A stretch of DNA of 37,041 nt. Source: Oscillospiraceae bacterium (lineage in GTDB: Bacteria > Bacillota > Clostridia > Oscillospirales > Oscillospiraceae). Below the pieces are notes generated by a model. The model did no database searches. It saw only the letters and a list, made by a program, of their open reading frames with translations, and was not told the DNA's origin. This document shows, piece after piece, positions 35,551 to 37,041 of the stretch. The stretch's first letter is position 1, and every line of letters begins with the position of its first letter. Where the stretch lies: positions 1 through 37,041 of the forward strand of contig JAFYNQ010000033.1 of the NCBI GenBank assembly GCA_017548065.1, in the 5' to 3' direction. The translations under genes were made by a program, and so were the position numbers.

Positions 35551-36642
35551 TTATTGCGGATCATTTATAATCCATTTGGAGGATGAATCATCTAACACAA
35601 CCTGCGGATATAAATCCTGCAGCTTTTGGATGTTCTTTTTTGTATAAGGAATCACACAGTGATCAGCCGCTTTGCCGTTCCAACGGTAAGCAAGTGCGGT
35701 GGCAGCGGTCAGTGCTGAAAGAGATTTGCTTTTGTTTTTGGGAAGAGATAGGTTTTTGTAACCGTTGCTTTCTTCTTTGCTTTCCAGTTCGTCGCAGGAT
35801 AAGCTTGTAATAAATAATACAGGAAGATGATGAGGAAAATATTTATGATAGCTTGTAAACAAATCAATGCGAACTGCAGTTTTAATTCCCTCGGCAGGTA
35901 TAAATACGATTTCTTTTTTGTTCGCCTTAACGTGTATTCCGTCGGTTTCCATATATACTTTGGGGTCAAAAAAAGTGAATTGTAAGCAAATGGAACTGGT
36001 ATTTGCAAAACTGCTATAAGGAGAAACAAAAATATCTTTACCTTGGGAGAAATTATAGTAGGGAAGATGCGGAAACATTTCTTTAATTGCTTGCTGAAGC
36101 GGTGTTTGCATTTCCAACATAATAATTCTGTTTTCTTTGAAAGGTGTAAATATACCGTAACGGATATGTCGTAAATATTCGGCAGCAAAATCATTTTGCC
36201 AGTTGGAAATCCTTTTGCGGAAAGGAATATCCTGCGTGGTGAAAAGGTTGCGTGTCAGGCGTTTTTCTTGAATTGCAGCCAATTTTTCTACTGTGTAACA
36301 ACTAAGGCAAAGGACGTTATCCTGTTCGTTACCGACGGCAAATATCGCTTTTATTTCAGAAACTGGGATTATAATCGGTTTTGCGCTAAAACGTTTAAAT
36401 GTTAGCGTTTCTTTTGTTATCAGTATGTCCTGATAATAACAGCAAAGAAGAATATTATAAAATAGAAAGGCAAAAATTAGCGCCACAATACAGGCAGACA
36501 AAATGCGATCTGTCCGGCAACAAGCATTTATAATAAAAATTAAATAGAAACCCAATAATCCGAGGATATATAAAGCTAAAATGGAATTGCTGGATAATCC
36601 GTGCCAACGTAAATGTATGCCATTATATTTATTGTTTTTCAT
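35551..36642 (-). CDS. Orphan membrane protein of unknown function, two transmembrane spans
   Basis: A 363-residue protein with two membrane helices close together near the N-terminus (about 19-40 and 46-68) and a long cytoplasmic remainder. The stretch after the second helix (DILITKETLTFKRFSAKPIIIPVSEIKAI) looks like a pleckstrin-homology-type membrane-protein strand pattern, and a similar IHVKANKKEIVFIPAEGIKTAV occurs later, so two related beta modules are possible. I do not recognise the family. The upstream ATG at 36648 abuts AAAGGAGG; the ATG at 36642 has correct spacing and is chosen. It is AT-richer than its neighbours and lies between luxS-mtnN and a tRNA. Confidence 0.65.
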   Translation of the reverse strand: MKNNKYNGIHLRWHGLSSNSILALYILGLLGFYLIFIINACCRTDRILSACIVALIFAFLFYNILLCCYYQDILITKETLTFKRFSAKPIIIPVSEIKAIFAVGNEQDNVLCLSCYTVEKLAAIQEKRLTRNLFTTQDIPFRKRISNWQNDFAAEYLRHIRYGIFTPFKENRIIMLEMQTPLQQAIKEMFPHLPYYNFSQGKDIFVSPYSSFANTSSICLQFTFFDPKVYMETDGIHVKANKKEIVFIPAEGIKTAVRIDLFTSYHKYFPHHLPVLFITSLSCDELESKEESNGYKNLSLPKNKSKSLSALTAATALAYRWNGKAADHCVIPYTKKNIQKLQDLYPQVVLDDSSSKWIINDPQ

Positions 36643-36697
36643 TGTCATCCTCCTTTGATGCCTACCTAAGAACGGTTAAATAGGATGCTTTGGAAAT

Positions 36698-36726: not shown

Positions 36727-36763
36727 TATACAGCTTTGTGTCTAAGAATATGGAAATAAAAAG

Positions 36764-36797
36764 TAAAGAGGACATTCCATTCGGAATGTCCTCTTTA
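36764..36797 (-). terminator. Terminator following the tRNA-like element
   Basis: A perfect 15-bp stem (36764-36778 with 36783-36797, TAAAGAGGACATTCC) with a 4-base loop; on the minus strand it is followed by CTTTTTATTT. It lies 1 base after the CCA-like end of the element, just as the second terminator follows the genuine tRNA. Confidence 0.85.
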
Positions 36798-36819
36798 ATG
36801 GTACGCCGGAAGGGACTCG
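36794..36819. repeat. 26-bp direct repeat, copy 1 (tRNA-Arg 3' end)
   Basis: Identical to 36969-36994, 175 bases away. It contains the CCA, acceptor 3' strand and T-arm 3' half of the neighbouring tRNA-Arg, plus the last bases of a terminator stem. Confidence 0.95.
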
Positions 36820-36926
36820 TTTGCATTTTCTTCCGCAAGTGTGCGGAAGAAAATAGAGGATCGCCGCCATCTAGCTGGCGGCGGCAACGCTCATCCGCGT
36901 TGCATTTGATTGTTCGAGTCCCTTCC
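36799..36926 (-). ncRNA. Candidate structured element with tRNA-like 3' end (possible RNA or MITE)
   Basis: On the minus strand the element reads GGAAGGGACTCG (36926-36915), three hairpins, CGAGTCCCTTCC (36819-36808), then GGCGTACCA (36807-36799). The outer 12 bp pair perfectly. Inner hairpins are 7 bp at 36884-36903, 8 bp at 36862-36883 (directly abutting the first) and a perfect 13 bp with a 4-base loop at 36825-36854. The 3' end equals the tRNA-Arg 3' end including CCA, and a strong terminator follows. No protein-coding frame is apparent. It could be a CCA-ended structured RNA, a miniature element with inverted ends derived from a tRNA, or an integration scar. Confidence 0.5.
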
Positions 36927-36938
36927 TTACATAAAAAT

Positions 36939-36972
36939 TAAACAGGATATCCCAGATGGGATATCCTGTTTA
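36939..36972 (-). terminator. Terminator of the tRNA-Arg gene
   Basis: A perfect 15-bp stem (36939-36953 with 36958-36972, TAAACAGGATATCCC) with a 4-base loop; on the minus strand it starts 1 base after the tRNA CCA and is followed by ATTTTTATG. Confidence 0.9.
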
Positions 36973-36994
36973 ATGGTACGCCGGAAGGGACTCG
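36969..36994. repeat. 26-bp direct repeat, copy 2 (inside tRNA-Arg)
   Basis: The copy belonging to the genuine tRNA-Arg 3' end; identical to 36794-36819. Confidence 0.95.
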
Positions 36995-37041
36995 AACCCC
37001 TGACCTACTGGTTCGTAGCCAGTCACTCTATCCAACTGAGC
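36974..37041 (-). tRNA. tRNA-Arg (anticodon ACG), 5' end cut by window
   Basis: On the minus strand the visible 68 bases run from the D-arm (GCTCAGTTGGATAGAGT) through the anticodon stem ACTGG/CCAGT with loop CTACGAA (anticodon ACG, read as ICG for CGN codons), the T-arm with loop TTCGAGT, and the acceptor 3' strand ending in an encoded CCA. About nine bases of the 5' acceptor region lie beyond the window. Its terminator follows at once. Confidence 0.93.

Follow-up and report, generated by a model that had tools for sequence, protein, structure and literature searches.

A structured element behind a tRNA-Arg gene

The window, by which we mean the whole 37,041-nt stretch of Oscillospiraceae DNA analysed here, ends in a tRNA-Arg gene on the minus strand (36974..37041; Rfam tRNA, 44.7 bits at 36977-37041). 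Its 5′ end is lost at the contig end and its anticodon, ACG, was read off the sequence; C56 corresponds to base 36994 and A76 to base 36974. Every feature of the element beside this gene is also on the minus strand, in the order tRNA CCA, terminator, inverted T-arm, three hairpins, CAAA, copy of tRNA C56-A76 and terminator. A proximal direct copy, consisting of tRNA C56-A76 and 5 further nt (36969..36994), recurs 175 bases away at 36794-36819. This 26-bp repeat, already pointed out in the initial annotation, is exact and is the sole exact direct repeat of at least 22 bp in the window. Likeness between the two sites extends across both terminators, over ~64 nt in total (36931-36994 and 36756-36819), such that the terminator hairpin at the tRNA/element boundary (36938..36973) is a diverged copy of the distal one.

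The left arm of the element (36912..36926; GGAAGGGACTCGAAC) is a 15-nt inverted copy of the tRNA T-loop, T-stem and acceptor strand, and begins 11 bases, including a T-run, after the first terminator hairpin. Twelve of its nucleotides (36915-36926) pair with 36808-36819 in the outer stem of the predicted fold, and its match to the tRNA therefore continues 3 nt beyond its pairing with the right arm. The right arm is the first 12 nt of the distal direct copy of C56-A76 (36799..36819), an exact repeat. Enclosed between the arms are ~110 bp containing hairpin 1 (7 bp; 36884..36903), hairpin 2 (8 bp, loop GCUAGA; 36862..36883), hairpin 3 (14 bp; 36824..36855) and a conserved CAAA junction 3′ of hairpin 3 (36820-36823). 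The three hairpins correspond to helices 2, 3 and 4 of alignment A2 (described below), with 96.0%, 89.4% and 93.2% of cells paired respectively. A distal terminator of 15 bp follows (36764..36798). Folding thus confirmed the perfect 12-bp outer stem and the dedicated 15-bp terminator of the initial annotation as well as its two smaller inner hairpins; the third, described there as 13 bp, is 14 bp with a closing wobble pair. The element strand has a minimum free energy of -97.1 kcal/mol (z -15.19), equalled by none of 200 shuffles, and the impression of more order than in random intergenic DNA was well founded.

There is no ORF of 90 aa or more inside the element, and hence no integrase gene of its own such as a tyrosine-recombinase integrative element would carry. 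At the gathering threshold, Rfam returned only the tRNA, cut by the window end, in this region. Five other matches were found up to E 1 at 36740-37041, all far under their gathering scores, and no Rfam family covers the element in the sources scanned.

A multicopy family in the same genus and beyond

BLAST identified relatives of the element in 26 of 60 genomes, all of them within the 37 genomes of the same genus. A covariance model built from 12 copies, picked by a perfect 8-nt outer stem, found the element in 35 of 41 congeners, with as many as 23 copies in a single genome; the copies in relatives that the initial annotation proposed to look for do exist. The model found no match in the other six congeners, including G006, G021 and G035 (97-99% complete), of which G006 and G035 have one weak BLAST match each. 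Since three of the six are this complete, the element looks dispensable. Across the order, the model matched 5 of 295 genomes at E<=1e-4, including two congeners. Scoring covered 12 candidates in each genome, so weak copies may have been missed.

We also searched GTDB genomes with an exact pattern, composed of the arm ACTCGAA and the hairpin CAGTCCGGTGGACTG, which is present in both types of body described below. It occurs in at least 118 stretches. To judge by their titles, most of the 80 listed come from Oscillospiraceae and other Clostridia, and they include the isolates Faecalibacterium prausnitzii APC923/61-1, Pseudoflavonifractor sp. MSJ-30 and Aminicella lysinilytica. A same-strand tRNA lies within 400 nt upstream of 63 of the 85 matches in these 80 loci. 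Only 27 of those 63 have a right copy of at least 8 nt of the tRNA tail within 450 nt, and many of the matches without one may be class A bodies (see below). Four matches labelled Planctomycetota, with no tRNA in view, may be due to chance. No match to the window element was found in plasmid and phage records at E<=0.01, and viral contigs contained a single exact match to the pattern.

Copies lie behind tRNA genes of many kinds

Over 79 sources the model gave 117 matches, of which 113 were distinct and 110 remained after three antisense duplicates were dropped. A tRNA or tmRNA gene on the same strand lies within 900 nt upstream of 86 of the 110 copies, and within 65 nt for 64 of these 86. Not one of the 110 has an opposite-strand tRNA within 150 nt ahead. 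The host genes are of 16 kinds (Arg, Pro, Ser, Gly, Cys, Ala, Asp, Leu, Thr, Lys, His, Gln, Tyr, Met, Val and tmRNA). The Met- and Val-linked copies are weak matches from other families; the Val copy fits its tRNA, the Met copy (L079) does not. No tRNA is in view for the remaining 24 copies, the larger part of which are near a contig end; the window copy is itself counted here because its tRNA is cut. In one locus (L190), the tail of tRNA-Arg(acg) recurs six more times behind the gene, at a spacing of 106-109 nt.

The arms of each copy follow its own host gene. Over the 86 tRNA-linked copies the mean match to the own tRNA is 10.7 nt for the left arm and 17.4 nt for the right, against at most 6.9 and 7.2 nt in 200 shuffles of the tRNAs. 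A right copy of at least 10 nt is present in 75 of 85 tRNA-linked copies; its first base is C56 in 62 of these, T55 in 11 and another position in the remaining 2. When 80 copies were compared with their tRNA at nine positions (5 copies skipped), 656 of the 720 positions had both arms in agreement with the tRNA, 55 had a differing left arm and 6 a differing right arm, and at 3 both arms differed but still paired.

Bodies, on the other hand, are shared between tRNA genes. In draft genome G022 the bodies behind tRNA-His, -Gly and -Asp are 87-95% identical, each bearing the arms of its own tRNA. More generally, body identity between different tRNAs is 0.617 within a genome (106 pairs) and 0.582 between genomes (3404 pairs), the within-genome value being reached in none of 500 label permutations, and it is 0.847 at the same tRNA of one genome (31 pairs). 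The average effect of within-genome sharing across tRNAs is modest. Close cross-tRNA pairs (at least 0.8) number 4 of 106, three of them from one draft genome that is 85% complete and 3% contaminated. In one genome, the sites at two tRNA-Arg genes have both the terminator and the left arm in common.

Insertion at the T-loop and a possible origin of the left arm

The gene next to the element in the window (35551-36648) is present in 2 of 41 genomes, its own included. As it is not conserved, we used the tRNA-Arg(ccg) locus and conserved tRNA operons as anchors for empty sites. In the operons, spacers occur in both occupied and empty states. The Gly-Cys spacer is 35 nt in G011 and 179 nt in G027, where the extra sequence consists of C56-A76, a short spacer, a left arm and a body. 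The Arg-His spacer is 16 nt in G034 as against 163 nt in G022, 137 nt in G001, 195 nt in G030 and 98 nt in G027, which has a partial copy. The tRNA-Arg(ccg) locus adds two more such pairs as judged by eye, L113/L129 and L137/L126, which have downstream sequence in common. We also looked for sequences that follow an element in one place and directly adjoin a tRNA in another. Of the 70 pairs obtained, many were the next unit of an array and not empty sites; this search also pointed to the Gly-Cys pair. At the level of sequence, this comparison shows insertion at the T-loop, between T55 and C56.

Two further observations deserve mention. The Thr-Tyr spacer of L162 (44 nt) contains a left arm and a possible body start with the right arm absent, and looks like a degraded insert. 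Past the tRNA-Arg(ccg) tail in L113, L126, L129 and L137 there is a terminator with a TTTGATAGA-like loop; the direct repeats after it (TTCGACGGACTATC or CGTGTAGCGAATAG) are short and spaced, and might mark the start of another type of element.

The origin of the left arm is suggested by seven of 246 distinct tRNA contexts, drawn from a set of loci rich in elements. In these the tRNA tail from T54, the CCA and the terminator form a palindrome with arms of 35-40 nt that are 95-100% identical. The body directly follows the palindrome in all seven, and the left arm is the end of the palindrome. The complete palindrome is rare among loci. In most other copies just 8-17 nt beside the body still match the tRNA, and beyond 11 nt the match of the left arm is near chance (7.3 vs 6.7 of 12, over 56 measured loci). 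For an RNA, a reversed CCA and acceptor strand would serve no obvious purpose; they resemble what fold-back copying at the terminator hairpin would produce. Overall, the copies of the tail can be read in the order direct, inverted, direct, with turns at two natural hairpins, the terminator and the T-arm.

A second type of body, arrays and cargo

Class A bodies (GAAAGGGCGGC ... GTGGGA) bear a short right arm of their own. The class A pattern gave 27 matches. In 20 of them the arms pair over 5 nt or more, as GGACTC/GAGTCC (17), GGATTT/AAATCC (2) or GGACTT/AAGTCC (1). Both GGATTT copies come from loci that contain a tRNA-Ser. The remaining seven matches look mostly like chance. Composite A-B elements are found in the window's own genome (C86, C94).

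A few arrays hold genes between their sites. In G008, two T-loop sites 4.7 kb apart behind a tRNA-Arg(ccg) enclose genes for a Shedu SduA protein, a HaeIII endonuclease and two C5 methylases (L142, 4611-8658), with two mismatches in 18 in the right copy of the far site. Behind the tRNA-Tyr of G008, three sites enclose 2.2 and 1.1 kb; the right copy of the third is truncated, and the three longest ORFs between these sites have no Pfam match. Lastly, the stretch between a tRNA-Arg site of G033 and a weak second site (E 4.8e-5) encodes an AMP-ligase and an acyltransferase. Gene-bearing gaps are thus present in three loci; in one of these the second site is weak and in another the third is truncated, whilst the other arrays have no genes between sites; this count is to be read against a flank of only ~1.5 kb in many of the loci.

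A proposed model of copying from the target

By comparison of these copies, direct copies of C56-A76 flank both sides, the left arm is inverted, the body is shared across tRNAs, tandem arrays form and a few of the arrays carry genes. We therefore think it probable that the structure in the window belongs to a family of non-coding, mobile hairpin cassettes of gut Clostridia, which enter tRNA and tmRNA genes in the T-loop, at T55/C56, and derive both of their ends from the target.

Such an insertion might proceed as follows. A copying strand would traverse the tRNA tail, fold back at the terminator hairpin and copy the tail in reverse. This would yield tail, terminator and reversed tail, the palindrome that is still complete in seven loci. 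At TTCGA, the universal sequence of the T-loop, copying would switch to the body of another cassette and would then return at C56 of the original tRNA. The tail would end up present three times, in direct, inverted and again direct orientation, and the body would lie at the second turn. The tRNA would stay intact and the ends would always fit the host gene. The agent could be a recombinase, or the enzymes of replication and repair alone could suffice.

DNA-level copying or a conserved RNA

The initial annotation offered an undescribed CCA-ended RNA as one reading. In a version of this reading, transcription from the tRNA promoter would read through into the element and yield a functional small RNA, kept for its fold, much as the RtT repeat of Escherichia coli is listed by RefSeq as an sRNA processed from the tyrT transcript. 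The strength of the fold (z -15.2) is in keeping with this, as are the compensatory changes in its stems, which the initial annotation had raised as a check and which proved strong among relatives. In alignment A2, which comprises 111 distinct sequences fitted to the covariance model and in which array copies are not independent, 93.7% of cells are paired. There are 822 double-change cells as against 219 in shuffles, and all slid versions of the alignment score far lower.

However, the kinds of change are not those of the tRNAs. In A2 we counted 60 G-U and 48 A-C combinations in 3672 cells, whereas the acceptor and T stems of 149 tRNAs from the same loci have 174 G-U and 10 A-C. Stems conserved in a sense-strand RNA would be expected to look like those of the tRNAs. 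Such near-symmetry, which the tRNA stems lack, points to DNA-level copying over a conserved sense-strand RNA; as aligned, the Watson-Crick stems of the cassette show none of the G-U excess of the tRNAs. A hand alignment of 12 copies (A1) has 18 G-U and 6 A-C (p 0.023), outer-stem pairing being itself a selection criterion for these copies, and hairpin 2 of A2 has 14 G-U and 4 A-C. Both excesses leave room for some RNA-level selection. Moreover, the 11 bases that separate the left arm from the first terminator hairpin leave little space for a separate promoter, joint changes in the arms that still pair occur at only 3 of the 720 positions tested, and six of 41 congeners, three of them 97-99% complete, have no model match. 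Taken together, these data weaken the case for a small RNA, which we consider unlikely.

Candidate enzymes

We searched for enzymes that could move the cassette. Among tyrosine recombinases (PF00589, 12 genomes), two XerC/XerD-like proteins, presumably XerC and XerD from their sequences and neighbours, are present in 10 of the 12, and other members are not common to these genomes. The two are missing from G008 (68% complete) and G035 (98%), and are present also in genomes without a model match. G035, with neither a XerC- nor a XerD-like protein, likewise has no class B model match. Large serine recombinases are found in 13 of 13 genomes, again including some without a model match. In an F. prausnitzii locus (L219, 3954-4703), a gene fragment that resembles the C-terminal portion of a large serine recombinase ends just ahead of two class-A-like sites, with no tRNA found in the locus. 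The Y1 transposase (PF01797) was found in only 2 of 11 draft genomes and is thus not generally available in carriers, as it should be for an IS200/IS605-type element. None of the enzymes tested (tyrosine recombinases, reverse transcriptase, Y1 transposase and large serine recombinases) separates carriers from non-carriers.

These results bear on an integron-like reading, in which the element would be a folded single-strand recombination site, the T-loop an attachment site, and a recombinase would move circular cassettes with or without genes. In its favour are the right junction at C56, the terminator and left arm common to sites at two tRNA-Arg genes of one genome, and the genes between sites (Shedu with HaeIII restriction-modification, the unknown proteins behind tRNA-Tyr, and AMP-ligase with acyltransferase before a weak second site). 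However, there is no conserved integrase candidate besides the XerC/XerD-like proteins, a recombinase alone would not fit the left arm to a new tRNA, and gene-bearing gaps occur in only three loci. We regard this reading, too, as improbable.

A retroelement that inserts by target-primed reverse transcription at a nicked T-loop would account for the fixed right junction and for direct repeats of variable length, from 21 to ~64 nt. Yet reverse transcriptase (PF00078, RVT_1) was found in 7 of 14 draft genomes and in none of the carriers G011, G018, G001 and G026 (92-99% complete), which nevertheless hold 15, 22, 7 and 11 copies respectively, making this a very remote prospect. A scar of tRNA-targeted integration, also put forward in the initial annotation and here taken as that of a prophage or ICE, would repeat the tRNA 3′ end as at ordinary attachment sites but is refuted by the conserved, structured body and inverted arm of ~110 copies, and a real prophage-like element in a tRNA-Arg(acg) just upstream of a class B element (L143; 2780-4174 and 9645-9731) looks different, having its own 464-aa integrase and a different junction.

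Comparison with known systems

The preferred reading, a hairpin cassette with both ends taken from its target, can be set beside several known kinds of mobile or rearranged DNA. Integron cassettes form ordered arrays with folded attC sites that have inverted arms, and with genes between the sites. Array order, a folded site with inverted arms and, in a few arrays, genes between sites are features of the Clostridial family also. Unlike in integrons, its target is the tRNA T-loop, its arms follow that target, and the PF00589 search of 12 genomes identified no integron integrase, the only widely shared members being two XerC/XerD-like proteins. Tandem inversion duplications arise by strand switching at palindromes and have a direct-inverted-direct order. 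The Clostridial element has the same order, with turns at natural hairpins (terminator and T-arm), but differs in having at one turn a conserved body that is shared between loci.

MITEs are short, non-coding, multicopy elements with terminal inverted repeats. The element in the window is likewise multicopy and non-coding, with a direct repeat at its insertion. However, the copies have no constant terminal inverted repeats in common, because the repeats derive from the target and change from locus to locus with the local tRNA. The suggestion of a tRNA-derived miniature transposable element in the initial annotation thus holds insofar as the element is multicopy, inserted and dispersed, and fails as regards fixed terminal repeats. 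Of the three outcomes named in the initial annotation as refuting it, two, an absence of copies in relatives and an absence of covariation in the stems, were not observed. Tycheposons and other tRNA-targeting integrative elements insert at tRNA 3′ ends, repeat the tRNA tail and bring along genes, a recombinase among them. The place of insertion and the repeated tail are alike, whereas the unit in the window measures ~110 bp between its arms and is gene-free.

The closest parallel is the RtT repeat (rttR, RF00391). At tyrT-tyrV of E. coli, 19-nt direct copies of the tRNA-Tyr tail lie in tandem with a 178-bp period and a 10-nt inverted left arm. The RtT body is present in 4692 of 5426 complete E. 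coli genomes, and the copy number at this locus ranges from none to at least 5 (L309, L310). With a query of joined flanks, 8 of the 30 E. coli records listed matched the junction from tRNA-Tyr to flank in one piece, with no RtT under the match; such junctions may be losses as well as sites that were never filled. Moreover, two annotated RtT repeats lie behind a tRNA-Pro in Salmonella Infantis SARB27 (a chromosomal contig in a phage collection; L311, 978-1316). They are 78.6% identical in the matched part and have an 18-nt copy of the tRNA-Pro tail, and their arms match tRNA-Pro. In the titles and abstract openings of the open-licence literature searched, we found nothing that explains the origin or spread of RtT-type repeats or that describes such elements.

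RtT and the Clostridial family are alike in their copies of the tRNA 3′ end, their inverted left arm and an outer stem that closes a branched body, and the element in the window is built to the RtT plan, with repeats behind a tRNA that reproduce its 3′ end and form a closing stem with it. The bodies, however, are not homologous by the models used: RF00391 is absent from the window at the gathering threshold and from 36740-37041 up to E 1, and covariance model R1 gave a best E of 1.4 on the E. coli locus. The junction of RtT is near A58/A59 and that of the Clostridial family at T55/C56. In the loci read, RtT lies behind only two kinds of tRNA and has no cargo genes, whereas the Clostridial family lies behind many kinds and has such genes in a few arrays.

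We tentatively suggest that the two could be branches of a general class of bacterial mobile DNA, multiplying by strand switching at the terminator hairpin and the T-loop. If so, ends copied afresh at each target would let one body fit many kinds of tRNA, as well as tmRNA, harmlessly, and serial insertion would build arrays anchored to tRNA genes that are able to collect cargo such as defence genes. The target would then write the ends of the insert, and the ground beside tRNA genes would be a natural landing array that can hold defence systems. RtT itself would cease to be an oddity of a single locus and become a branch of a broader pattern, whose rule can be tested: a shared body, and ends that both match the host tRNA.
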